From positions 1 through 21,323 of IMG/VR virus record IMGVR_UViG_3300012358_000009: a stretch of DNA of 21,323 bases; one strand, written 5' to 3'. The notes below the pieces were generated by a model. It did not search any database, was not told the origin of the DNA, and saw nothing but the letters and a program-made list of their open reading frames with translations. Numbering within the stretch: the stretch's first letter is position 1; each line of letters opens with the position of its first letter. Shown one piece after another: positions 4,516 through 21,323 of the stretch. The position numbers and the translations under genes are program-made. This DNA comes from a virus.

Positions 4516-5040
4516 TTATTCCCCCTTGTCGCGCGGGCGCACCCGATACGGAGCCGCCGCCGCCTTCGCCTCCGCGACCGCCTGCGCCTGGTGCGGCCCC
4601 TCGTTCCGAGCCGCCGTTTCCGCCTCGCTTCTCCCCTGCGCCCGAAGCGCCGCCTCGTTCGGATCGGGCGCAGGGAGTGCGGCATCGAGGGTCGGGGCGG
4701 GCTCCGGTGGAACCTCGACCGCCGCGGTGGGGACCGGCTTCGGCTTTGCTTCCTCCTCCAGCGCGTCGTGCCGCTCCTTCAGGATCGCCAGCACTTCGGG
4801 GCGCGGGGTATCCGCCGGGACGCCCAGATACCGCTTGTCGTTCTCCTCGCGAACTTTGCGGCCGGCGGCGGCGGCGGCGGCATCAGCAACCACGACCGAG
4901 CCCCGGTCCTTCAGTTTGGCGAACATGTGCGGACAGCGTGCGAAGTCCTCGGCCGTCACCGTCTCCCCGACCATAAACATCCGGTCGGTGTTCGGTGGGC
5001 CAAGAACGCCTGTGCGCTGGACGATGAACTCTTCTGACAT
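4516..5040 (-). CDS. Phage structural-region protein, paralog of the next upstream gene
   Basis: This 174-residue protein has a very good start: AGGAAGAG lies just before ATG 5040. Residues 1-52 form a compact domain (MSEEFIVQRTGVLGPPNTDR, then FMVGETVTAEDFARCPHMFA, then a Gly-x-Val end). This domain matches the 62-residue protein encoded at 5175-5363 nearly position for position. The rest is a low-complexity Ala/Pro/Glu-rich helix. It begins with a seven-residue Ala run that a GGC-repeat run at 4864-4881 encodes, and it continues through EVLAILKERHDALEEEAKPK. Small domains of this type are common in phage head genes, but their role is not known to me. The low-complexity tail may be a flexible arm. 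Confidence 0.7.
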   Translation of the reverse strand: MSEEFIVQRTGVLGPPNTDRMFMVGETVTAEDFARCPHMFAKLKDRGSVVVADAAAAAAGRKVREENDKRYLGVPADTPRPEVLAILKERHDALEEEAKPKPVPTAAVEVPPEPAPTLDAALPAPDPNEAALRAQGRSEAETAARNEGPHQAQAVAEAKAAAAPYRVRPRDKGE

Positions 5041-5174: not shown

Positions 5175-5363
5175 CTACCGCCGGGTGCCGTGATGCTCCG
5201 TCTCGTGAAGGACGAGCCCGCCCGAGACGGCGAGCGAGCGGAACAGTTCGGGGCACTGCTCGAAATCGTCCACGGTCACGATGTCGCCGGCCTGGAACTC
5301 CCGCTTCGCCTTGGGCGGCTTCAAGACGCCCGACTTCTTCAGGATATATCGCTGGTCTTCCAT
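5175..5363 (-). CDS. Small structural-region protein, tandem paralog
   Basis: This 62-residue protein starts at ATG 5363 with AAGGAG six bases upstream. It begins MEDQRYILKKSGVLKPPKAK and continues EFQAGDIVTVDDFEQCPELF. It shares the frame 'GVL-PP-...-F-x-G-x-x-VT-x-x-DF-x-x-CP-x-x-F' with the N-terminus of the adjacent larger protein, so the two arose by tandem duplication. The C-terminus ends abruptly at HHGTRR. The +1 frame continues protein-like for about 20 more residues, so a frameshift near the end is possible. Function unknown. It sits downstream of the LamG protein gene and upstream of connector genes. Confidence 0.65.
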   Translation of the reverse strand: MEDQRYILKKSGVLKPPKAKREFQAGDIVTVDDFEQCPELFRSLAVSGGLVLHETEHHGTRR

Positions 5364-6510: not shown

Positions 6511-7359
6511 TCACTGAACCCTCACAGCGTCCGGCTTCGCCTCGATCGCAGCTTGAAGGGCCGCGGGAACGTTGCCGAGAAAGTCGTAACCGGTGATGCG
6601 CTCCACCTGATCCACACTCACCCGGTAATCGGCCCACCGCTGCCCGTGAACGCTTCCGTCGTTGGGGAGGGAGACGGCGACGACCCGCGTCTCGCCGCTC
6701 ACACGGGCCAGGTCGCCGTCTCCCTGGGGGAGCGCGACGACCACCTTCCAGCAGACCCCAGGCACGTTCAGTCCGATACGCACGGGACCGGGCCGCTTCG
6801 GGATCACACCCAATGAGCCGCCGCCGCCGGCGGTGATGTAAAGCTCGTCCCCGTCCCGCCTTACGAGGTCCCGGCAGTAGCTCTCCAGCTTCTCCCACGG
6901 CCCGCGGTTCAAATCCGGCGCCTGGGGGAGCATGTTGCTCATGAAGAAGGTGGGGAGGTTATCCTCGCGCGTCGCCGTGCGGTCGCCGGAAGGACACTGG
7001 TGGCCGCGGTCATAGCCGCTCCCTTTGTAAGCGTCCGCGTCAATGCGCCAGGAGCGGGGCAGGTCGGGATCGGCCACGAACTTGTTGGTGCGCTCCGTCG
7101 TCCCCAAGTCCTCCGCGCCGAGGTGCCAACTCACCCAGTTGGGGCCGCGCGTCTTGTAGTTGTAGGAGAGCGCATACTGGCGGCGCTCCAGCAGGTAGTT
7201 CTCGGGACGCTCATCATCCTTCGTCGCTCCGCTGGGGTTGCCGAGCAGCATATTGCTGTTGTCCTGCGGCATCGGGGCCTGGGAGCCCGCGGGCCTCGGC
7301 ACAAAGAGGAGCGAGAGGGCGAAGAGCGCCCCGAGAATGGGATAGCGTGGTCTGGGCAT
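6511..7359 (-). CDS. Secreted DNA/RNA non-specific endonuclease (NucA/Serratia nuclease family)
   Basis: This 282-residue protein starts at ATG 7359. Residues 1-27 look like a Sec signal peptide: basic start MPRPR, hydrophobic core around 8-20, probable cleavage after AGSQA. The nuclease core has the DRGH motif (D117-R118-G119-H120) with the general-base His120. It is followed by MSNMLPQAPDLNRGPWEKLE, where Asn151 matches the metal-binding Asn and Glu159 the conserved Glu of the Serratia nuclease. The family cleaves DNA and RNA without sequence preference using one Mg ion. Here the gene sits between the major capsid gene and the LamG gene, with only short gaps, so it is co-transcribed with virion genes. 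It may be a cargo (moron) gene whose product is exported to degrade extracellular nucleic acid, or it may be used during infection. The enzymatic call is strong; the phage role is inference. Confidence 0.92.
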   Translation of the reverse strand: MPRPRYPILGALFALSLLFVPRPAGSQAPMPQDNSNMLLGNPSGATKDDERPENYLLERRQYALSYNYKTRGPNWVSWHLGAEDLGTTERTNKFVADPDLPRSWRIDADAYKGSGYDRGHQCPSGDRTATREDNLPTFFMSNMLPQAPDLNRGPWEKLESYCRDLVRRDGDELYITAGGGGSLGVIPKRPGPVRIGLNVPGVCWKVVVALPQGDGDLARVSGETRVVAVSLPNDGSVHGQRWADYRVSVDQVERITGYDFLGNVPAALQAAIEAKPDAVRVQ

Positions 7360-10610: not shown

Positions 10611-10663
10611 GCAAACAAAAAGAGGGCCGCGTGACAAGCTGATTGCTTGTCACGCGGCCCTCT
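10611..10663 (-). terminator. Rho-independent terminator-like hairpin upstream of the protease gene
   Basis: Arms 10621-10639 and 10645-10663 are perfectly complementary over 19 bases with a 5-base loop. In the minus direction the stem is followed by TTTTTGTTTG. This is an excellent intrinsic terminator for transcripts coming from the right. It ends only about twelve bases before the protease/scaffold ATG at 10598, which makes it look more like an attenuator or an antitermination target than a simple operon end. Confidence 0.85.
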
Positions 10664-11192: not shown

Positions 11193-11375
11193 TTAACCCA
11201 CTTCCGGGCCGCCGTCAACCTCTTCTTCGGGCCGCACCCCGTAGCGGGTGAGATCGACACGCACCGGCGGGAACCCACGCTTCTTCACCTCGACGACGGC
11301 GCGCTTGGGATCGACCTTGAGGACCAGGTTCCCCTCCAGGTCGCGGACTTCCTTCCACCGCTCGCCGCCGCACAT
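11193..11375 (-). CDS. Small hypothetical protein
   Basis: This 60-residue protein starts at ATG 11375 (MCGGERWKEVRDLEGNLVLK), with GGAGGG seven bases upstream and a TGATG overlap with the preceding stop. The TTG one codon upstream is rejected. It is charged, with a beta pattern LVLKVDPKRAVVEVKKRGFP, and lacks a membrane segment. It resembles small OB- or beta-barrel-like phage proteins only in a general way, and I do not recognise a family. It is the last gene before the 0.6-kb gap. Confidence 0.7.
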   Translation of the reverse strand: MCGGERWKEVRDLEGNLVLKVDPKRAVVEVKKRGFPPVRVDLTRYGVRPEEEVDGGPEVG

Positions 11376-11659
11376 CAATCATCCCTCCGCTCTCGTTCTT
11401 CCTTTCGCCAGATCCTGCGCCAGCGCTTCCGGGTCAAAACCTCCTTATCCCACGCTTCGCGGCAGTCGGGGCAGAGATAAAGGTGGTACCGCGACAGCCA
11501 GGCGAAGAAACGGATGAGAGCGATGACGAACCGGCCGAGAGCGTCAAACAACCACCCATCCGACCCGTGGGTAACTTCATCTATCTCTGCGGCCGTGAAA
11601 ATCTCGGCGTGACCGCACCGGGCACACCACAGCGTAATATCTGCGCCAGGCTTGCTCAT
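11375..11659 (-). CDS. Zinc-ribbon-like protein with amphipathic/hydrophobic middle
   Basis: This 94-residue protein starts at ATG 11659 in an ATGA overlap. It has CARCG at residues 12-16 and CPDC near residues 63-66, the two halves of a probable zinc ribbon. The hydrophobic stretch WLFDALGRFVIALIRFFAWL between them could touch a membrane, and the C-terminus is very basic (TRKRWRRIWRKEERERRDD). The distance between the Cys pairs is longer than in a classical ribbon. Function unknown. It belongs to the run of Cys-motif micro-proteins that flanks the portal gene. Confidence 0.65.
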   Translation of the reverse strand: MSKPGADITLWCARCGHAEIFTAAEIDEVTHGSDGWLFDALGRFVIALIRFFAWLSRYHLYLCPDCREAWDKEVLTRKRWRRIWRKEERERRDD

Positions 11660-11952
11660 CCCCCGCCCCCATTAGAAGCCGCCGCCGCTTCCCGGTGACA
11701 CCGGCAGGGACAGCTGCCCGCCGGCATCACGCGACACCTCGCCCGCTCGGGATTGGTGCAGATGCACGTCTTGTTATCGTGCCACTGCGCCATCCATTCC
11801 ACACCGGCCAGGAACGCCGGCTCGATAGCGGCGTGCGCCGGCCAGCCCGTCCGCCCCAGTTCCCCAAGGACGGCGCTCTCGTATTCCTCGGCCGCCTGCT
11901 CGGCCCTGGTGAGCCGGTGGGGCGATACGGTCGGGGTATCATGCTCCGGCAT
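11656..11952 (-). CDS. Cys-rich small protein following portal
   Basis: This 98-residue protein starts at ATG 11952, overlapping the portal stop, with GGAGGGATCA directly upstream. A helical N-terminal half (HRLTRAEQAAEEYESAVLGE) and FLAGVEWMAQWHDNK lead to a Cys cluster: CICTNPERARC then CPCRCH (five Cys plus His). This looks like a metal site. It ends AAAASNGGGG, nearly repeating the portal C-terminus (AAAASNGSGG), and the DNA around both ends is similar. Function unknown. Confidence 0.7.
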   Translation of the reverse strand: MPEHDTPTVSPHRLTRAEQAAEEYESAVLGELGRTGWPAHAAIEPAFLAGVEWMAQWHDNKTCICTNPERARCRVMPAGSCPCRCHREAAAASNGGGG

Positions 11953-13495
11953 TGATCCCTCCGCTCCCATTGGAAGCCGCCGCCGCCTTCTCATTCTGCC
12001 CCACCCCCTGCACCGTCCCACCGGCATTGGCGGCGGCGGCCGGCTCTTCTTGAGGCATCGCAGCGATGTCCGCCTGCTTCTGCCGGCGTGCCACGTCCTC
12101 CGCCGAGCGCATCGGCACCCCCAGCTCCTGGTCCATGTCGCGGAGCTGTCCCGGATCGAAGTAGCCGCTCCGCATGAGGCTCGCGACGCTCGACGCCTTC
12201 ACCGCGAAGTTCTGCTGCTCCGTGTCCCCGAGGTTGGGGTAGGGCGCGAGGTCCACCGCCTCCTCCCCGTAGTTCAGCCGCAACCAGTTCGCGAACATGT
12301 CCAGGCGGATCATCTCCTCCGCGCGCGTGCGCAGGTATTGGATCGGCAGTTCCAGGATGTCCTGGTGGACCTGGGACGCGGCGCGGGAGCCGAACTGCGC
12401 TTCCTGGGTGGCGAGCGATTGGAAGAGGATGCCCTGGTTGATCTCGTGGTTGAAGAGGTCGATCGCCAACCGGAAGGCGTCCCCGGTAGTGAAAGCGAAC
12501 AGCGTTTTCACTTCCGCGCCGTTCGGGATGGCCAGCGCCGTGGAGTTGTGGAACGTGAGCAAGGAGGCCAGCATATCCTGCACGGGATCGACGATGACGG
12601 GGGTGTCGGTCTCGTCCAGGATCGGATCGCCGTTCTCGTCCAGCTTCGGTCGGGCCTGCGCGTCGGGGGCCGTCGTGCCGATCACGGAGGGCGATGCAAA
12701 CTGGAGCAGAAACTTGTAGAACTCCGGCCAAACTTGCGTCTTCAGCCACCACGAATTGTACGCAGCGCGTATCCACGCCGAGCCGCGAGGATCGCCGTTC
12801 TTTCCCAGGATGCTGAACAGCACGAACTTGCCGCGGGGCAGGAGGTTGGGCAGCTTCCCCAGATCCTCGCCCCGCATCGCCAGGACGCCCTGAAGCATCT
12901 GGTAGTAGAGGCCGGGGACCACACCGAGCACGCCCACCCAGTTCATATAGGGATCCACCACGAAGGCGTAGCTGTCCCGGCTCTTGAGCTTGATCGCCTT
13001 GGGGACGAGCTTCCCGGCGTCGGGACCGCTCCCTGCGACCTCGTAAACCTGTTCCGCCAGGCGGTGGCCGAAGGCGATGCCGTCCAGCAGCTCGTAGAGG
13101 GTGGCGGTGCGGAACTCATGGAGCCTGGCGAGACAGCGCTCGCAGAAGTCGAGGTACTCCTGGGCCTGTTCATAGCGGGGGTCCTCCTCGTCCACCGACG
13201 GCGAAAGCTCGATCTTCTGTCCGATCACCGCCTGCTTCAGGATACTGATGTCCGAGAATATCTGCGGATCTTCGAGCATCCGCTCGTAGACATCCGCTCC
13301 CACGGTGCGCTCGATCCCATCGATGTATTTAGGAAGCGAGCGGTAGTAGTCCGCCAGGAACGGCGACCAGCCACCGGCAGCGACGTACTCACGATTCGCG
13401 TCCGCGCTGACCCGAGGCGCGTTTCGGGGACGGCCGGGAGGGCGCTTCTCCGGGGGTGGAACGGGGATGACCTCGGTGATCTGGCTATCGGGCAT
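11939..13495 (-). CDS. Portal protein (DUF935 / Mu gp29-like)
   Basis: This 518-residue protein starts at ATG 13495, just after the previous stop. The portal-type core includes FSDISILKQAVIGQKIELSP (80-99), a helical stem-like region, and RGKFVLFS followed by DPRGSAWIRAAYNSWWLK (~221-252), a hallmark of DUF935 portals. FNHEINQGILFQSLATQE lies further on. The C-terminus is Ala/Asn/Gly-rich and disordered. Twelve copies form the DNA entry ring, to which terminase docks. The length fits the family (about 480-530). In most phages the portal gene follows terminase directly, but here more than 3 kb of small genes intervenes. Confidence 0.88.
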   Translation of the reverse strand: MPDSQITEVIPVPPPEKRPPGRPRNAPRVSADANREYVAAGGWSPFLADYYRSLPKYIDGIERTVGADVYERMLEDPQIFSDISILKQAVIGQKIELSPSVDEEDPRYEQAQEYLDFCERCLARLHEFRTATLYELLDGIAFGHRLAEQVYEVAGSGPDAGKLVPKAIKLKSRDSYAFVVDPYMNWVGVLGVVPGLYYQMLQGVLAMRGEDLGKLPNLLPRGKFVLFSILGKNGDPRGSAWIRAAYNSWWLKTQVWPEFYKFLLQFASPSVIGTTAPDAQARPKLDENGDPILDETDTPVIVDPVQDMLASLLTFHNSTALAIPNGAEVKTLFAFTTGDAFRLAIDLFNHEINQGILFQSLATQEAQFGSRAASQVHQDILELPIQYLRTRAEEMIRLDMFANWLRLNYGEEAVDLAPYPNLGDTEQQNFAVKASSVASLMRSGYFDPGQLRDMDQELGVPMRSAEDVARRQKQADIAAMPQEEPAAAANAGGTVQGVGQNEKAAAASNGSGGINAGA

Positions 13496-13498
13496 CGG

Positions 13499-13780
13499 TT
13501 AACGTGTGCGCTCCTGCTGCTGAATGGTCGCGGCTGCTTCCAGCGCGGCCCAGGGATCGCGCTGCGGCGTCTTGGGCCTGGCGCGGTTCGCCTGCGCGGC
13601 GATCTTCTCGGCATACTCTTTCTTGGCGCGGTCACGAGCCGCCTCTTCTTCCCAGTAGGGCTCCAGGGCCGCATTCGTCAGCACGTTCAGATACTCATCA
13701 GCGACGGGCATCCGGTCCATTTCGGCCTCGCAGGCGCACAGTTCTCCGGTCGCGTCCGTATACTGAAACTCAACGAGCAT
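13499..13780 (-). CDS. Hypothetical protein upstream of portal
   Basis: This 93-residue protein starts at ATG 13780 with GAGGT six bases upstream (the longer frame to 13807 is not needed). It begins MLVEFQYTDATGELCACEAE. The CAC pair near residue 15 is its only Cys feature. The C-terminal half is a long charged helix (EEEAARDRAKKEYAEKIAAQ) with possible coiled-coil character and a Gln-rich end. Function unknown. Spacing to the portal gene is three bases, so the two are translated from the same message. Confidence 0.65.
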   Translation of the reverse strand: MLVEFQYTDATGELCACEAEMDRMPVADEYLNVLTNAALEPYWEEEAARDRAKKEYAEKIAAQANRARPKTPQRDPWAALEAAATIQQQERTR

Positions 13781-13784
13781 CCAG

Positions 13785-13994
13785 TTACCTCGACGTGACG
13801 GTGACATCCGGCTTTCGGATCATCTTCAGCGCGCTCCGCTGCATCCGCAGCCATTGCCTGTGGACCGGGCAGGAAGGCGCGTGACCGCTGCCGTTGTTGT
13901 GGATGATCTTCGGGTACTCGCAGCGGCACTCCTCACGACGCTCCTCCAGGCCAACGCTCATCGCGATCCCCTCCAACGGCAGTTCCAATTGCAC
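13785..13994 (-). CDS. Small metal-site protein (CxC...CxxH)
   Basis: This 69-residue protein starts at GTG 13994, with GGAGG eight bases upstream (MQLELPLEGIAMSVGLEERR). A second good start lies at ATG 13961 (GGAGGGG upstream). The centre has CRCEYPKIIHNNGSGHAPSC followed by PVH, a compact Cys/His metal site seen in several short phage proteins of unknown role. The C-terminus is basic. Part of the Cys-motif gene series. Confidence 0.65.
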   Translation of the reverse strand: MQLELPLEGIAMSVGLEERREECRCEYPKIIHNNGSGHAPSCPVHRQWLRMQRSALKMIRKPDVTVTSR

Positions 13995-13995
13995 C

Positions 13996-14175
13996 TCACA
14001 CCTCCGACTTCCGCACGACCTCGACGACCTCATACTCACCGCCGTCCGTGGCGTGCTCTCTGATCCACGCCAGGCAGTTCTCGCGGGTCGCGTCGCGGAA
14101 CGCCTCCTCGCGGAGATGCTTGCGTTTCCCGCGCAGATCGAGATAGCCCTGGACGTTGAGATAGACCACCCACAT
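13996..14175 (-). CDS. Small hypothetical protein
   Basis: This 59-residue protein starts at ATG 14175 with AGGTGAGC upstream. It begins MWVVYLNVQGYLDLRGKRKH and has a basic helical middle (LREEAFRDATRENCLAWIRE) followed by an acidic strand. The longer frame upstream is a shadow of the membrane protein gene. The family is not recognised. Confidence 0.6.
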   Translation of the reverse strand: MWVVYLNVQGYLDLRGKRKHLREEAFRDATRENCLAWIREHATDGGEYEVVEVVRKSEV

Positions 14176-14180
14176 ACCGC

Positions 14181-14570
14181 TCACCTGCCTCCCGCCCAGA
14201 GGTGAACGATCCACCCCAGGCCCAACGTGAGTGCGGGAGCAAGGAGCGTTCGCCACACGCCTGTCTTCCACAGGCCCCGCTTCTGCTCCTCGGCCATCAG
14301 GTCCGTCAGGTAGATAGCCTGCTGGCAATGGCGCAGGAGCAGCATCAGACCGACCGCAAGGGGGAATGGCAGCACCGGCCCGCCCAGGGGCACGACGAAC
14401 CAGCCCCAAAGCGCCCGCATCACGAAAGCGGTCCACATCACGAGTGGTAGAGCCAGGACGACAAAGACGAGCACGCCCACAACACTCCCGGCCAGCACCC
14501 CGGCGGTTGTGGCCAGCACCTCCTCCCAGTCAGTCTTCGCCCGCGCCTTCCGCCCCAGTGTCGCGCTCAC
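14181..14570 (-). CDS. Multi-pass membrane protein
   Basis: This 129-residue protein starts at GTG 14570 in a GTGA overlap. After a basic N-terminus it has three hydrophobic segments: about residues 20-48 (AGVLAGSVVGVLVFVVLALP), 48-80 (AFVMRALWGWFVVPLGGPVL, PLAVGLMLLL) and 108-126 (LLAPALTLGLGWIVHLW). It may span the membrane three or four times. Phage holins are small multi-pass proteins, so a lysis role is possible. The location between terminase and portal and the absence of a neighbouring endolysin make that uncertain. It could also be a superinfection-exclusion type protein. Confidence 0.6.
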   Translation of the reverse strand: MSATLGRKARAKTDWEEVLATTAGVLAGSVVGVLVFVVLALPLVMWTAFVMRALWGWFVVPLGGPVLPFPLAVGLMLLLRHCQQAIYLTDLMAEEQKRGLWKTGVWRTLLAPALTLGLGWIVHLWAGGR

Positions 14571-14770
14571 CCGTTCACCTCCAGCCCGTAGGCGAGCCTC
14601 AACTCAAAATGGCACGCCGCGCAGTGCAGGAGCGTCAGCCCGCTCACCTGAAACGTCACCGCGAACAGCTTCCTTGACGCACCCCGGCACCGGTCGCATG
14701 ACAGCGGCTCGGGCGACTCCACCGGCTCGGCTTCCGTGAGCCAGGCCGTGGGAGATGCGCGGCCGATCAC
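14567..14770 (-). CDS. Small zinc-ribbon protein
   Basis: This 67-residue protein starts at GTG 14770 in a GTGA overlap. CDRC at residues 25-28 and CAAC near residues 50-53, spaced by about 21 residues with a beta pattern (FAVTFQVSGLTLLHCAACHF), make a probable zinc ribbon. It resembles the short DUF7455-like phage proteins in layout. Such proteins have no known function. The N-terminus is acidic and Pro-rich. Confidence 0.65.
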   Translation of the reverse strand: MIGRASPTAWLTEAEPVESPEPLSCDRCRGASRKLFAVTFQVSGLTLLHCAACHFELRLAYGLEVNG

Positions 14771-14958
14771 GTCCCCTGCGCTTTGTCATAGGCGAGCAGT
14801 TCCGGCTCCCCTCCCGTGGCAAACACCCGCACGAGACACGCCTCGTGTACGTCGCGAGACACCGAGTAGGCGGGCATCGAGACCTCCAGGCGGCATACCT
14901 CCGCATCCGGTATCTCCTCCCGGCATACGTCGCAGGTGTAGATCGTGCGGCTTGCCAC
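14767..14958 (-). CDS. Small Cys-pair protein
   Basis: This 63-residue protein starts at GTG 14958, two codons after the preceding stop region. CDVC at residues 9-12 opens a probable zinc ribbon, but only two more Cys (EVC, EACL) follow and the ribbon is incomplete (DVHEACLVRVFATGGEPELL). Function unknown. GTGA overlap with the next gene indicates coupled translation. Confidence 0.6.
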   Translation of the reverse strand: MASRTIYTCDVCREEIPDAEVCRLEVSMPAYSVSRDVHEACLVRVFATGGEPELLAYDKAQGT

Positions 14959-15183
14959 TTACGCGAAGCCCCATTTCTCGGCCAGATACCGCTCCACCTT
15001 TTGCCGATCCTCGTCGGTGAGCAGCGAAGAGGAGCCGTAACGCTCCGCAATGAAGTCCCAACGCACCTCACTCGCAACGTAGGCGAGAGGCAAAAGCGGC
15101 GGCGGCGGCTTGATGAATGCCTTGGCGGCAACCGGAGCGCTCGTGAGCACCGCCAGGAAGCCCAGGAACGCGCGCCGGTTCAT
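14959..15183 (-). CDS. Small protein with Tat-type signal and LamG-like C-terminal motif
   Basis: This 74-residue protein starts at ATG 15183 (ATGA overlap). The first 22 residues read NRRAFLGFLAVLTSAPVAAK, an RR-x-F-L motif followed by a hydrophobic core and an Ala-rich end, that is a twin-arginine signal. A four-Pro run follows, encoded by a GGC-repeat at 15098-15109. The C-terminus LLTDEDRQKVERYLAEKWGF is the typical closing motif of LamG-type domains. The window's own 375-residue LamG protein has the same end (LTDPQKAGVRTYLSQRWGIP). Yet a full LamG domain is absent, so this may be a deleted remnant or a mini-lectin. Export via Tat would place it outside the membrane. Confidence 0.65.
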   Translation of the reverse strand: MNRRAFLGFLAVLTSAPVAAKAFIKPPPPLLPLAYVASEVRWDFIAERYGSSSLLTDEDRQKVERYLAEKWGFA

Positions 15184-15368
15184 TCTCGCGCCTCCGGCGT
15201 TGCTCGCTCCCGGATGAGCCCATAGTTGTCCATCAGCAGCTCCGAATGGGGGCGGCCTTCCTCGCCAAGAAGGATGAGGATTTCGCCCTCACGGAGGGCC
15301 TGCATTTCATCCGGCGTCAGGTCGGCGCCCCAATTCGCAGTTCGCCCGCAGCGTGTGTAGAAGGGCAT
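15180..15368 (-). CDS. Small hypothetical protein
   Basis: This 62-residue protein starts at ATG 15368, sharing one base with the preceding stop. It begins MPFYTRCGRTANWGADLTPD and has an acidic, leucine-rich core (EILILLGEEGRPHSELLMDN). No motif is recognised. ATGA overlap with the next gene. Confidence 0.6.
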   Translation of the reverse strand: MPFYTRCGRTANWGADLTPDEMQALREGEILILLGEEGRPHSELLMDNYGLIRERATPEARE

Positions 15369-15556
15369 CAGCCCGCCTCCACCTCCTTGAGCGTCACGCG
15401 CCGGCCGCACGGACAGACGGGCAGCACCCCGTGGGCATAGTGCTCCGCGACCAGACCGTTGTGACGACCGCAGGCGGGACAGTCCCAGAGCAGCCAATCC
15501 TGCCCCGCGTAATGGACGCGGCTGCGTTCCGCGGGTACCTCGGTCAACTCGCTCAT
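15368..15556 (-). CDS. Small zinc-ribbon protein
   Basis: This 62-residue protein starts at ATG 15556 in an ATGA overlap. The core is WDCPACGRHNGLVAEHYAHG then VCPCGRRVTL: CxxC and CxC spaced by about 22 residues, a typical small zinc ribbon. Function unknown. Together with neighbours it makes a run of consecutive Cys-motif micro-proteins. Confidence 0.7.
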   Translation of the reverse strand: MSELTEVPAERSRVHYAGQDWLLWDCPACGRHNGLVAEHYAHGVLPVCPCGRRVTLKEVEAG

Positions 15557-15744
15557 CCGCCGATCCTCGCCCCATAGCGCACGAGCGGCAGCGTCCTCTG
15601 CTGGAGCGCATCGATCCGCTCCGAGAGCGCCGCCACCTGCCCCTGCAGCACCGTCACCTGCTGGCCCAGCGCCTCGATGCAGCGGCGCGGGCTGGGGTGG
15701 ACGCCGGCCGCGCAAGGCATCCCGCAGATCAAGCAGGTGGTCAT
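15553..15744 (-). CDS. Small CxxC protein with coiled coil
   Basis: This 63-residue protein starts at ATG 15744 in an ATGA overlap. MTTCLICGMPCAAG places three Cys in a compact N-terminal site, with a fourth Cys in PRRCIEAL. A coiled coil follows (LGQQVTVLQGQVAALSERID), so it probably oligomerises. The longer frame to 15885 is a shadow of the upstream gene. The family is not recognised. Confidence 0.65.
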   Translation of the reverse strand: MTTCLICGMPCAAGVHPSPRRCIEALGQQVTVLQGQVAALSERIDALQQRTLPLVRYGARIGG

Positions 15745-16133
15745 CGCGTAGCACTCGCTGCCGTAAAACCTAACTTGATGGTGTGCCAAGCCCAGAGGCG
15801 GTTTGTAACTTCCGGGAAATGCTCCTCGGCCAACCACATCATCTCCTCTTGGGTGAACCCACCCTTCGCCACGAACACACTGCACGAGCCGGGCCGCGGA
15901 TCAACAGACGTGTCCCACATCGCGAGCGCCGTCCACCCGTCCCGGTAATGTACAGCGGCAACATCCTCCCGGCCGTGGGTGCGCTGAAAAGGTCCTACGT
16001 AGCCGGGGCAGAGAGTGCCATCCACCTTCCAGCCCCAGGGAACGACCTCCGCGGCATCCATCCAGTGGATCATTCCCGGCGCCCAGAAGTAGTGTCCCGG
16101 CTTTTCGTGACATCCGAAGTATCCGAAGATCAT
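15741..16133 (-). CDS. Hypothetical aromatic-rich protein, start uncertain
   Basis: Annotated from ATG 16133 this protein has 130 residues and is rich in Trp, Tyr and His (HEKPGHYFWAPGMIHWMDAA, later DVAAVHYRDGWTALAMWDTS). The same frame is open and protein-like upstream (LLNDTEGLLTIESDAASGGA). It lacks ATG, GTG or TTG there, but an ATT at 16163 has a strong SD (GGAGGGG) nine bases upstream. The true start may therefore be ATT, a rare start used by infC. Family unknown. It is the first gene after a 112-base gap downstream of the terminase-linked gene. Confidence 0.6.
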   Translation of the reverse strand: MIFGYFGCHEKPGHYFWAPGMIHWMDAAEVVPWGWKVDGTLCPGYVGPFQRTHGREDVAAVHYRDGWTALAMWDTSVDPRPGSCSVFVAKGGFTQEEMMWLAEEHFPEVTNRLWAWHTIKLGFTAASATR

Positions 16134-16215
16134 CGCGCCACCCGATGCCGCATCCGATTCAATCGTCAGCAGCCCCTCCGTGTCATTTAAAAGCGAGCCG
16201 GCAAGATGCTATAGA

Positions 16216-16236
16216 GGGCTCCCATGAGGGAGAGCC
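16216..16236 (-). terminator. Imperfect hairpin in the gap before the aromatic-rich gene
   Basis: The minus strand reads AGAGGCTCTCCC then TCAT then GGGAGCCCTCT. It pairs over about ten bases with two single-base bulges. There is no T tract, so this is at most a weak terminator or an RNA structure. The rest of 16134-16245 shows nothing else. Confidence 0.25.
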
Positions 16237-16245
16237 TCTCGCAGA

Positions 16246-16677
16246 TTATATCGCGGTTTCCTTGACAGGTTCTTGCCGCGCCGGCTCCTTCTCCACCCGC
16301 TCCTGCATCCGCCGCATCCGCTCCATGTAGAGCGCCGTCTCAATCGTATCCAGGTTCACGACCGTATCGAAGACCACCGCGCCGCCCCCGATCTCGTCCG
16401 TGAGGTAGAGATAGGTGCCTCCCACCGTCTGCTGCCGGTAGATCGTCACGCCGTTGGGCATCGTGGGGACTTCCTCGCACGGGGCCGCTCCTGGGTCACG
16501 AGCGGCCCCGTGTAATCGGCCGGCCCTTTCGTTCGGCTTCTCGCTAAACGGATCGTCCTCCTCCCTGATAGGGCCTTCAGCCGACGGCGGCTCACTGACG
16601 GCTTCAAACGGAAATCCGTAAGTCGAAATGGGCGCGGGCCACGCCTCACCGAATACCTCTCTGACAGGATCACTCAT
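16246..16677 (-). CDS. Hypothetical protein downstream of terminase
   Basis: This 143-residue protein starts at ATG 16677, overlapping the TerL stop (ATGA). It begins MSDPVREVFGEAWPAPISTY. The N-terminal half is acidic and Pro/Glu-rich, with a disordered look. The C-terminal half is more ordered (MPNGVTIYRQQTVGGTYLYL then a long charged helix MERMRRMQERVEKE). The internal ATG 16461 has its own SD (GAGGAAG) eight bases upstream, and the coding sequence just before it holds a 12-bp perfect GC hairpin. It may therefore be two proteins in one frame, a full-length form and a 71-residue one. Family unknown. Confidence 0.65.
   Translation of the reverse strand: MSDPVREVFGEAWPAPISTYGFPFEAVSEPPSAEGPIREEDDPFSEKPNERAGRLHGAARDPGAAPCEEVPTMPNGVTIYRQQTVGGTYLYLTDEIGGGAVVFDTVVNLDTIETALYMERMRRMQERVEKEPARQEPVKETAI
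16478..16512. repeat. 12-bp perfect GC-rich inverted repeat inside a gene
   Basis: CACGGGGCCGCT (16478-16489) and AGCGGCCCCGTG (16501-16512) are perfectly complementary with an 11-base loop. On the minus strand the structure lies 17 bases upstream of an internal ATG (16461) that has its own SD (GAGGAAG). It could modulate internal initiation. Confidence 0.8.
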
Positions 16678-18032
16678 CGCAATCTCCCCAGGACATCGCT
16701 CACCTTCTGCGCCCTTCCCGCGGCACCGTTCCCGCTCGCTATCGGATAAGCCGCCGCCGCCCGTTGCCCACCGGCCTGGGGCCGAGCCGCCGCCGGCCTG
16801 CGTGCCCCCCACCAGGCGAGCGCCAATGCGACAACCGTGTCATCATGGAAGCCGGCCGGCGCGTTCATCCGCACGTTCCGGGAAGGCGTCAGCTCATACT
16901 GGTAGGCCAGTAGTTCCGCCGTCTGCTGCGGAATGTCCATCAGCTTCAGGTCCCCATGCTCCAGGCCCATAGCCAGCGCGTCGATCAACCGCTCCTTACT
17001 GGCGTGGGTGAACTGGTATCCCTGCACCGAGACGCCCGCCTTTCGCACTGCCTCAAAAGGCGGATCTCCTACCCCAGTCGAGTCCATAACGACCGTCGCC
17101 GCATACTTCCTGGCCGTGCGGATGATCGCCTCGATCTGCCGCTCCCAGGAGACTTCGCGGAACCGGTCAAAGTAGAGTTGGCGGCCGGCGGCATCCAGCA
17201 CCGTCAGCACCGTGAAGTCCTCAATGCGCGCCAGATCCACGCCTAGGCAGCAGCAGGCGGCGGCGGCTTGGTTTTCAGTCTGGCCCGGAACGACACAGGC
17301 CGAGACGTTTCGGAACACGGAGCCACCATCCTCCAGAAACGCGGAAAGCACCTCCTGCTGAAAGATGCGTTCGGGGGTGGTCTGGAAAAGCTGCTCAATC
17401 TCCTCGAAACTGATCGAGGGATTCTCTAGCGGGTGTGGCGCTCGCACCAGTCCATGCTCGCCAATAGCCACGCCAAGCGTCGGCGTGGACCACGAAGCAC
17501 TGTCCGGCCTCTCTTTCGCCGCTGTGTGTTCTCGCCAAAAGTAATTCAGCCCTTTCGGCGTCCCGATCGCCCACGACCACCCCCCGGTGTCAATGAGCAT
17601 CGGGCGCAGCACCTCATACCACGCGCTCTGCGTCACGTCCCCGGCCTCGTCGATCACCACCCCTGTCGCCGTGAACCCGCGCACGTTGTCGGCGTGATCC
17701 AGCGATCGATAGATGATCTGCCCGCCGCCGGGAAAGAATGCCGTCATCGTTCCCACACGGAACTCGGCGACACCCCTGGCTGCACGCTGCGTCTCCCCCC
17801 AGCAGATGCGCACCTGATCGTAGACCGGAGCGCCCCACACCACGATTCCACCCGCGAACGCCTCCTCGACGGCAATCGCCATTGCCAGCGTTGTCTTCCG
17901 CCAGCGGCGACCGGCCGCGAGCCAGTTGTGGCGCTTCGCCTCCCGGCGCACCCGCTGCTGTCCAGGGTGCGGGTAGGGCAGGCGTATCCTGGTTTCATTC
18001 CGAGGCGCTGTTATCCCGCCAATCGTTGACAT
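16674..18032 (-). CDS. Terminase large subunit (TerL)
   Basis: This 452-residue protein starts at ATG 18032, overlapping the small subunit by 38 bases. The ATPase domain has Walker A in AAGRRWRKTT (39-48), Walker B in GVVIDEAGD (124-132) and the coupling motif WAIGTPKG. The nuclease domain has GVDLAR (Asp266), VVMDSTG (Asp317) and HDDTV (Asp397/398), the acidic metal-binding set of RNase H-like terminases. It drives DNA into the prohead and cuts the concatemer. Upstream PHPGQQ fits the family N-terminal motif, so the start is right. The C-terminus is Ala/Gly/Arg-rich. Confidence 0.95.
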   Translation of the reverse strand: MSTIGGITAPRNETRIRLPYPHPGQQRVRREAKRHNWLAAGRRWRKTTLAMAIAVEEAFAGGIVVWGAPVYDQVRICWGETQRAARGVAEFRVGTMTAFFPGGGQIIYRSLDHADNVRGFTATGVVIDEAGDVTQSAWYEVLRPMLIDTGGWSWAIGTPKGLNYFWREHTAAKERPDSASWSTPTLGVAIGEHGLVRAPHPLENPSISFEEIEQLFQTTPERIFQQEVLSAFLEDGGSVFRNVSACVVPGQTENQAAAACCCLGVDLARIEDFTVLTVLDAAGRQLYFDRFREVSWERQIEAIIRTARKYAATVVMDSTGVGDPPFEAVRKAGVSVQGYQFTHASKERLIDALAMGLEHGDLKLMDIPQQTAELLAYQYELTPSRNVRMNAPAGFHDDTVVALALAWWGARRPAAARPQAGGQRAAAAYPIASGNGAAGRAQKVSDVLGRLR

Positions 18033-18405
18033 ATTCGATCACGAACTGGCCCCGAAGCGCCTCGCCGGGAGGCGTGAGAAGCTCGTTGCGGACAATCTCG
18101 CGATACACCTCCGGGCAATGTGACTTCAAAAGAAAGATCACCAGCGTATCGCTGCCCTTGAAGGCCCGCCGCCTGGCCTCATCCTCCAGAGCCGCAACGC
18201 CCATCGCCTCTGCTTCCTTCCAACGCCTGGCGAACTCGGGCCGCGTCCTCCGGTGCTCATAGACCAACGTGCGGCCCACACGTGCGCCCTTGCACGCCCG
18301 GGTCACGTTCCCCGTCTCGGCGACGAGCGCGAAGAAGCGATCCTCCCAGACCTCTTTTTTGGGCGTGCTTTCCGTCCGCTCTTGCGCTTCAACCAGATCA
18401 TTCAT
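17995..18405 (-). CDS. Terminase small subunit (TerS)
   Basis: This 136-residue protein starts at ATG 18405 (MNDLVEAQERTESTPKKEVW). It contains an HTH: FFALVAETGNVTRACKGARV then TLVYEHRRTRPEFARRWKEA, followed by a helical oligomerisation part (EAMGVAALEDEARRRAFKGS) and LVIFLLKSHCPEVYREIV. This is the common small-terminase layout: HTH for pac recognition, then ring-forming helices. TerS lies just upstream of TerL, as expected. No strong SD precedes the start; the longer frame to 18543 is a shadow of the neighbouring frame. Confidence 0.88.
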   Translation of the reverse strand: MNDLVEAQERTESTPKKEVWEDRFFALVAETGNVTRACKGARVGRTLVYEHRRTRPEFARRWKEAEAMGVAALEDEARRRAFKGSDTLVIFLLKSHCPEVYREIVRNELLTPPGEALRGQFVIEYVNDWRDNSASE

Positions 18406-18431
18406 ACCGTTAGCCAGAAGGCGCTCGCATT

Positions 18432-18689
18432 TTACGCCACCATCTCCAGCCGCCCACCGACCGTCCCGGAGTGACAGGCCCGCGAACAGAACCACTGCGC
18501 CCACCCCGGCCCGTCCGCGCTCACCGCGAACTCGCGACCGCACACACAGAGACGCTTCGGCGCCGTCCGCTCCCGCTTCTTGCGCTGCCGGTAGCGTTCA
18601 TGCCGCGCCGCAAGTATCGCCTCACGGTCGGCATCGTAGCGCGCCTTTCCAGACGCAATGTGCTTCTCACGCCGGCGGGGCTCGGCCCA
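18432..18689 (-). pseudogene. Zinc-finger reading frame without a canonical start
   Basis: Between TAG at 18692-18690 and TAA at 18434-18432 a frame of 85 codons reads like a real protein. It has a basic helix (GKARYDADREAILAARHERY) and then CVCGREF...FCSRACHSG, a CxC plus CxxxC metal site. It has no ATG, GTG or TTG at a useful place. It lies +1 to the frame of the adjacent zinc-finger gene, whose first metal site is of the same type. This may be the shifted second half of that gene (indel or true frameshift), or a separate gene with an unusual start. Confidence 0.4.
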
Positions 18690-20090: not shown

Positions 20091-21323
20091 TTATTCATCC
20101 GCCGCTGCCCCTGGCGGCAACCAGGGTTCCCCGATCTCGCCGGCCGGTAGGTCGCCCGGCGGCTCGGCGCCTGGGAAGTAGGGCTCTCCGATCTCACCGC
20201 CCTCGCCAGGCAGCGGTCCCGGCGTGGGGATGGGCTGTGCGTCCCGCGTCACCTGTGTCACCAGGAGCGTGCCCAGCGGACTGCCTCCGCGCGCCACGTT
20301 CAGGGTCTCGTCCGAGACGACACTCCTCGCCCCCGCGCCCGTGAGGCGCCCCGCGAGGGACACGCTCTCCGCGGGAGTAGGGGCCGGCGGGACCGGCGTC
20401 GGCGTGGGACCGGGCGGCTTCAGAGCGAACTGGAAAGTAGACACCGCGCTGGGCGTATTCGGGGGCGCATCCGACCGGTAGACGGCGATCACACCGACGA
20501 AGGGTGGTGGATCGGCCACAAGAGGCGCGGCCACTCCGAGCACCGTGTCCGACCACACGTTGATGAATGATACCGATTGCCCCATGATCGTCACACGGCC
20601 CCTCTCGATCCCAAAGCCCGCGCCCAAAATCTGGAGCGGTTGGCCGTAGACCGCCGTGCGGATGCCGCGGTTGCCCTGCGCATCCCACACGTCGCGGATG
20701 ATCGCCGTCGCGGGCGTGGGCGTAGGCGGAACAGGCGTTGGGACCGGTGGGACAGGCACGGGGACGGGAACCGGCGTAGGAGTAGGAGTGGGACCGCCGC
20801 CGCCGAAGTCCTGAACCCAGGAATCCCCCCACACGCCGATCCCGACCTCGGTATAGCGCGGCTCCAGGATGTTCGCCCGATGGCCGGCGCTGTTCATCCA
20901 GGCGCTCATCACCGCGCTCGCCGTCAAGAACCCGCGGGCAATGTTCTCGCCCATGATCGTACCACGATAGCCGGCAGCCTGCATCCGGCTGAACGGCGTG
21001 GAGCCGTCGGGGCCGGTGTGTGAAAATGGAATACCCGATGCAAGCTGCTGGGCGTAGCCCTGGGCGGCCCGCGTCAACTGCAATTGGAAAACGAGGGCGC
21101 GCAGACCCGCCGCCGCCCGCGCCTGGTTCAGCAGAGCCAGCACTTCCGACGCCGCTCCGCCCGGCGTGGGCGTGGGTGTAGGAACCGGTGTCGGCGTGGG
21201 CGTGGGCGTGGGCGTGGGCGTGGGCGCCGGGGTCGGCCCCTCGCGGATGTCGGTAATCTTGAGGGCGTAGTTGTAATTCAGCCAATTCGCGCCGACGAGG
21301 TAGGACCAGAGGAGCCGGCCGAA
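20091..21323 (-). CDS. CAP-domain (SCP/PR-1-like) protein with Pro-Thr linkers, partial at right edge
   Basis: The frame is open from the window edge, so the N-terminus is missing; 410 residues are visible. The visible order is: a short N-terminal piece ending NWLNYNYALKITDIREG, a linker of Pro-Thr repeats (hexamer GGGCGT repeated in DNA), and a CAP domain. The CAP domain covers about residues 60-175, with FSHTGPDGSTPFSRM, GENIARGF and AWMNSAGHRANILEPRY. A second Pro-Val/Thr linker and an IPT/TIG-like beta domain follow (RDVWDAQGNRGIRTAVYGQP). The protein ends in a Pro/Gly/Glu tail with two imperfect IGEP(Y/W) repeats. Bacterial CAP proteins are exported and their function is mostly unknown. 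Lying upstream of terminase, it could be a phage cargo or host protein. No SD evidence is available because the start is outside. Confidence 0.85.
   Translation of the reverse strand, partial: FGRLLWSYLVGANWLNYNYALKITDIREGPTPAPTPTPTPTPTPTPVPTPTPTPGGAASEVLALLNQARAAAGLRALVFQLQLTRAAQGYAQQLASGIPFSHTGPDGSTPFSRMQAAGYRGTIMGENIARGFLTASAVMSAWMNSAGHRANILEPRYTEVGIGVWGDSWVQDFGGGGPTPTPTPVPVPVPVPPVPTPVPPTPTPATAIIRDVWDAQGNRGIRTAVYGQPLQILGAGFGIERGRVTIMGQSVSFINVWSDTVLGVAAPLVADPPPFVGVIAVYRSDAPPNTPSAVSTFQFALKPPGPTPTPVPPAPTPAESVSLAGRLTGAGARSVVSDETLNVARGGSPLGTLLVTQVTRDAQPIPTPGPLPGEGGEIGEPYFPGAEPPGDLPAGEIGEPWLPPGAAADE

Follow-up and report, generated by a model that had tools for sequence, protein, structure and literature searches.

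Gene Content and Layout of the Locus

The window analysed here, from an uncultured phage, is a whole 21.3-kb IMG/VR virus record (IMGVR_UViG_3300012358_000009; 21,323 nucleotides, nt), in which the genes lie mainly on the minus strand. Between the gene for the terminase large subunit (TerL; 16674..18032, minus strand; phrog_2, 2.9e-35) and the portal gene, which is of the DUF935/Mu gp29 type (11939..13495, minus strand; phrog_113, 6.9e-43), lies an interval of 3,178 nt. It contains 12 minus-strand open reading frames (ORFs) of 59–143 residues, named g1 to g12 from the TerL side, and is best explained as an accessory-gene island. TerL forms its upstream border and the portal its downstream border, while TerS is encoded upstream (17995-18543; phrog_4044, 2.2e-16).

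The genes are closely packed. Of the 13 junctions between TerL and the portal, seven overlap by 4 nt and one by 1 nt; at another the genes abut, three have gaps of 1–4 nt, and the only large gap, of 112 nt, separates g1 from g2. An initial annotation of this DNA had described about eleven genes of 59–143 residues between terminase and portal, most with overlaps of 1–4 bases. The family matches bear out its placement of TerL and portal, and the small genes are present, with 8 of the 13 junctions overlapping by 1 or 4 nt. The count is 12 rather than eleven, and the size range matches that of the ORFs, except that the longest, g1, is probably a gene of 71 residues.

A sigma-70-like promoter was not found anywhere in the island, nor a terminator from g1 to the portal. 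The 112-nt spacer folds no better than its shuffles and has no scored promoter inside it, and no RNA family was matched in the window. The small-gene block extends past the portal through three further ORFs, d1–d3 (11193-12027), of which two are rich in Cys, and reaches a very strong intrinsic terminator (10621..10663, minus strand; 19-bp perfect stem and T5; z -8.8), which precedes the head maturation protease gene. The first, d1 (11656..12027, minus strand), is a small Cys-rich ORF for which a product of 98 residues starting at 11952 is more likely; d2 (11375..11659, minus strand; 94 residues) has a CARC ... CPDC arrangement, a probable zinc ribbon, and no PHROG match. Both have weak coding scores. 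The third, d3 (11193..11378, minus strand; 61 residues), has a homologue directly downstream of TerL in two relatives of the phage (L031 and L032; phmmer, 5e-4). This predicted terminator would place the packaging genes and the head genes in separate transcription units.

The TerL–Portal Junction in Relatives

The TerL of the window is approximately 45–55% identical to 60 or more TerL proteins in IMG/VR. Profile searches with TerL recovered 60-odd relatives from viral contigs, plus two from bacterial metagenome-assembled genomes; 58 of these had enough DNA for the junction to be measured. The gap was measured from TerL to the first following gene of at least 280 residues, which was treated as the portal because of its size and position; its identity was not always confirmed with a profile. 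By this measure, the median gap is 11.5 nt and the longest 1,406 nt, compared with 3,178 nt in the window; the next large gene is not the portal in L005 and L030, and probably not in L003 and L033, and a few true gaps exceed those listed. Zero or one gene occurs at the junction in five named phages whose proteins are related to those of the window: Meiothermus MMP17, Thermus Riverbug, Microcystis Mwe-Yong1318-1, Gordonia Madi, and Microbacterium NarutoRun. The statement in the initial annotation that terminase and portal genes are normally adjacent is therefore true of this lineage, and these figures give a measure of how rarely the two are separated within it.

Where relatives do carry genes at the junction, the cargo differs from one to the next. 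It includes an N6/N4 methylase (L005), an FkbM methyltransferase (L012), a glycosyltransferase (L030), a Dam methylase (L037), zinc-ribbon proteins (L052), a membrane peptide (L008), and the d3 homologue (L031). No homologue of an island protein was found around TerL or the portal in the stretches of relatives that were compared. An island common to all relatives was accordingly rejected. A set of genes fixed as virion proteins in all relatives, the outcome under which the initial annotation would have given up its accessory reading, was looked for and did not occur. Genes have thus been gained at this junction relative to the relatives. Because the latter carry unrelated cargo at the same place, and no homologues of the island proteins were found there, the junction is an insertion-tolerant site that repeatedly takes up unrelated genes.

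Coding Potential of the Small ORFs

A codon model was trained on the long genes of the window and compared with a null of 49 spurious ORFs taken from wrong frames. The annotated frame scored highest of the six for all 12 island ORFs. Seven of these scored above every null ORF, and the other five above 90–98% of them. The weakest by codon usage is g2, which lies above 90% of the null, but it is accepted as a real gene because it belongs to a conserved family, evidence that is independent of the codon score.

For g1 (16246..16677, minus strand), the signal is confined to one part of the ORF, with a score of 0.49 per codon for 16246-16461 and none net for 16462-16677. The real gene is therefore probably the 71-residue part that begins at the ATG at 16461, rather than the full 143 residues, in which case the 4-nt overlap between TerL and g1 would be coincidental. 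Just upstream of this probable start, and within the first 72 codons of the longer ORF, is a GC-rich hairpin (16478..16512, minus strand) formed by a self inverted repeat, with a 13-bp perfect stem and no U-tract (z -3.95). Plus-strand ORFs called by a simple gene caller in the right half of the map were treated as high-GC artefacts.

The Island Proteins

Searches against Pfam, NCBIfam, PHROGs, and PADLOC gave only one match above cut-off among the island proteins scanned. This was g9 (14181..14570, minus strand; 129 residues), a protein with hydrophobic segments whose residues 33–125 match phrog_2169, a 'membrane protein' family in the moron/host takeover class, at 3e-7. That category is an annotation rather than a tested function, and none of the relative phages carries phrog_2169 (49 records). 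The membrane protein reported in the initial annotation is thus upheld. Searched alone, g9 had no relative in the phages or viral contigs examined. No head, tail, structural, or packaging family appeared among the PHROG, Pfam, and NCBIfam matches, and no defence family was matched in PADLOC, which covered 10 of the 12 proteins and lists mostly defence rather than counter-defence. A concatenated tblastn search of the island proteins against 50,697 phage records found a match to g2 only, in a single jumbo phage of 595 kb.

Five proteins have Cys spacing like that of zinc ribbons, least clearly g7. In g3 (15553..15744, minus strand; 63 residues), an N-terminal CxxC-x3-C cluster is followed by what reads as a heptad-like helix. 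Probable zinc ribbons are present in g4 (15368..15556, minus strand; 62 residues; CPAC ... CPC; DUF1922 at 0.033, below cut-off) and g8 (14567..14770, minus strand; 67 residues; CDRC-x21-CAAC; TIGR02605 at 0.027, below cut-off). The GTG-initiated g7 (14767..14958, minus strand; 63 residues) has a CDVC motif and two further Cys, while g11 (13785..13994, minus strand; 69 residues, or 58 from 13961) has a CxC ... CPVH motif, a scan with which found no relatives.

The remaining proteins are less distinctive. No family match was obtained for g1, g5 (15180..15368, minus strand; 62 residues), or g10 (13996..14184, minus strand; 62 residues; codon score 0.40), the last with FAR1 at 0.045, below cut-off. 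A charged C terminus that looks rich in helix characterises g12 (13499..13807, minus strand; 93 residues from 13780, or 102 from 13807; codon score 0.32), which has no PHROG. The N terminus of g6 (14959..15183, minus strand; 74 residues) resembles a signal peptide and contains a twin arginine, MNRRAFLGFLAVL. The twin-arginine translocation (Tat) signal proposed for it in the initial annotation is visible to that extent, but its score against TIGR01409 (13.2 bits, below the cut-off of 16.7) leaves it only suggestive.

The g2 Family

The main new element of the island is g2 (15741..16133, minus strand; 130 residues). The alignment to the 595-kb uncultured phage, which the concatenated island had matched through g2 only, was used to build a DNA motif. 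A scan with this motif recovered 21 viral contigs, all of which encode a full or partial g2 homologue, matching at 2.7e-10 or better with one exception at 8.6e-9; an exact-peptide scan with g2 gave no matches. Across 17 aligned members, the family is marked by YFGC-x4-GHY close to the N terminus and by an invariant WDxxVDxRPGS, with D38, P43, W73, D74, V77, D78, R80, P81, G82, and S83 unchanged in all.

An AlphaFold (AF2) model of g2 has a predicted local distance difference test (pLDDT) score of 88.4 and a predicted template modelling (pTM) score of 0.85. No fold match to it was found in the PDB at E<=0.001, and the sequence search gave nothing significant. The best model match in BFVD was an uncharacterized siphovirus protein (E 0.026; TM 0.55–0.63). 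There was no match in Pfam or NCBIfam and no convincing PHROG. Judging from its conservation, the surface carrying WDxxVDxRPGS looks like a ligand-binding or active site.

In other phages, g2 neighbours genes for an integrase, DNA methyltransferase, replication initiator, helicase, tail-fibre J, or TerL. None of the other island proteins was found beside the g2 homologues in the 21 other phage contigs, over stretches of 1.6–15 kb. The g2-family genes of these contigs (L099–L119) sit in clusters of small overlapping ORFs, and in L108 and L111, the cluster abuts the 5' side of TerL. A g2 profile matched none of 46 whole relative records, and g2 was absent from plasmids and from the two bacterial genomes with a related TerL. 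It was also absent from 299 and 251 genomes of two bacterial phyla (550), a weak negative, as the search had no positive control genome. Within what was searched, g2 thus represents an unnamed family that is apparently confined to phages. It occurs in contigs of up to 595 kb, and its protein can be expressed and its structure solved; it is the part of the island worth following.

Cysteine Knuckles

Knuckles, defined as C-x(1-4)-C/H, are more frequent in the island than among 594 small genes of the relatives. At least one is present in 6 of the 12 island proteins, compared with 95 of 594 (16%; Fisher p 0.007), and two are present in 4 of 12 compared with 34 of 594 (Fisher p 0.005), although these p-values are optimistic because the region was picked partly for its Cys motifs. 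The spacing of zinc ligands, with four Cys/His in two knuckles, is present in g4, g8, and g11, together with the Cys cluster of g3, while g7 has one knuckle and two Cys. The probable zinc ribbons of the initial annotation are therefore supported by Cys spacing in g3, g4, g8, and g11, and less so in g7, but no curated family matched any of the five above cut-off. A single-sequence model of g8 was poor (pLDDT 64), with no ribbon visible. Among relatives of the window phage, an excess of knuckles in the gap genes is not the rule.

Comparison with Known Islands

Comparable arrangements have been published. In two Microbacterium phages, 17 ORFs (Quhwah) and about 40 ORFs (Hendrix) lie between terminase and portal, which was called unusual (PMC7302621). 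In Quhwah (cluster EC; MH271321), 11 of the 16 junctions among the 17 gap genes are overlaps of 1 or 4 nt, and 7 of 17 products have knuckles; in Hendrix (MH183162), such overlaps occur at 28 of the 40 junctions among 41 gap genes, and knuckles in 20 of 41 products. As in the window, the ORFs are small, co-oriented, and mostly of unknown function, and many encode Cys-knuckle proteins. In contrast, neither phage has a sequence homologue of any window protein, and the Quhwah island contains intergenic repeat motifs (PMC7302621), while the genes of the window's island leave almost no space between them.

These two phages were chosen without regard to Cys, and knuckles are commoner in their gap genes than in small genes elsewhere in the same genomes (one or more knuckles, stratified p 0.004; two, 0.036). 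The excess across TerL–portal islands is a lead, not a result, but its occurrence in three unrelated islands offers a simple pattern that can be tested in large actinophage collections.

Two other systems can be compared. In Arthrobacter phage Laroye, TerL and portal are separated by five genes (PMC5513430); these are fewer and larger than those of the island, and one is annotated as a single-stranded DNA-binding domain protein. Mu-like Pseudomonas phages carry accessory ORFs of 34–100 codons, some of them anti-CRISPR, at fixed sites between core genes that include the head module (PMC4378225). The short accessory ORFs between core genes, and the Mu-type portal (phrog_113), are points of resemblance to the window. 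However, the Mu-like sites hold zero to six ORFs, and no 12-gene TerL–portal block has been described among them.

Origin and Role of the Island

The interval is best regarded as a heterogeneous accessory island, built from unrelated small genes gained singly at the TerL–portal junction, a reading to which we assign a probability of roughly 0.72. The extra DNA relative to 58 relatives, the unrelated cargo at their junctions, and the lack of structural or packaging matches all agree with the accessory island proposed in the initial annotation. Under this reading, unrelated small genes would enter the insertion-tolerant junction one by one. They would then be read within the late packaging transcript, probably as far as the terminator at 10663-10621, and the 1–4 nt stop/start overlaps that are observed could couple translation from gene to gene. 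The products would most likely be non-structural auxiliary proteins, each working on its own and not as part of a single complex. Thus, g3, g4, g7, g8, and g11 may be Cys-knuckle microproteins, probably zinc-binding, that contact nucleic acid or a host protein; g9 would be a membrane protein, g6 probably an exported peptide, and g2 a compact globular domain. No match, in PADLOC or elsewhere, supports the anti-defence or host-takeover functions suggested as possible in the initial annotation; such functions may yet apply, but a position in the late packaging/head operon counts mildly against a role in early takeover.

The island resembles morons in that its genes are absent from the same junction in relatives and that cargo differs between relatives. 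The term is not claimed in its strict sense because no sigma-70-like promoter or terminator of the island's own was found, the terminator lying beyond d3. Some points weigh against the accessory reading. No close relative of the window phage was found, the g2 stretches compared are short (1.6–15 kb), and the Cys excess (6 of 12) is above a random draw of small genes and could hint at a common purpose.

Such a purpose is the substance of the strongest alternative, namely that the island forms a single dedicated system, such as an anti-restriction or anti-defence set, in which the zinc microproteins, the membrane protein, and g2 act together. The tight overlaps, the shared transcription, and the knuckle excess, which is modest in Quhwah and Hendrix, would all fit. 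We nonetheless consider it unlikely, given that g2 is found apart from the other island proteins, that relatives hold quite different cargo, that the genes lie in a late operon, and that no defence or anti-defence family was matched, albeit with a PADLOC set that is mostly defence. The suggestion in the initial annotation of an undescribed system survives in part. The proteins are mostly undescribed, but g2 travels apart from the others, and islands of this architecture are already known from other soil phages (PMC7302621, PMC5513430).

It is slightly less probable again that some of the genes encode packaging or head-assembly factors, with a holding, connector, or TerL-accessory role beside TerL and the portal. 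Their position between packaging genes invites this reading, as do the d3 homologue directly after TerL in L031/L032 and the gene order of Thermus phage Riverbug, where TerS itself separates TerL from the portal. In the window, however, TerS has already been found upstream, no island protein has a head or packaging PHROG, and relatives using the same type of TerL for packaging lack these products.

A similarly slim chance may be given to a broader proposal, in which the TerL–portal islands of unrelated high-GC soil phages repeatedly serve as a store for zinc-knuckle microproteins that share a late role, such as shielding DNA in packaging or blocking host nucleases, and in which g2 founds a new fold acting on a host or DNA ligand. 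That part of the tiling is spurious, with several tiny ORFs not being genes at all, is very improbable: high-GC DNA is rich in long chance ORFs, g2, g4, g5, g7, g8, and g11 are each in the top 10% of the null and not beyond it, and the N-terminal half of g1 looks non-coding, but each of the 12 annotated frames outscores the other five, the 1–4 nt overlaps are ordered along the block, and g2 is a conserved family.

Other Features of the Window

Directly downstream of the major capsid gene, at 6511-7359 (minus strand), lies a NucA/EndoG-type non-specific endonuclease gene (PF01223, 2.8e-45). The DRGH motif is intact and the N terminus resembles a signal peptide, an odd product to find within a head operon. 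Upstream of the terminase genes, 20091-21323 (minus strand) encodes a protein with a CAP domain (PF00188, 7.7e-21) and long linkers of Pro-Thr repeats. Lastly, two adjacent minus-strand genes, at 5175-5363 and 4516-5040, resemble paralogues, sharing QRTGVLGPP / KKSGVLKPP and then DF..CP..F, and the second has a long Ala/Pro-rich extension.

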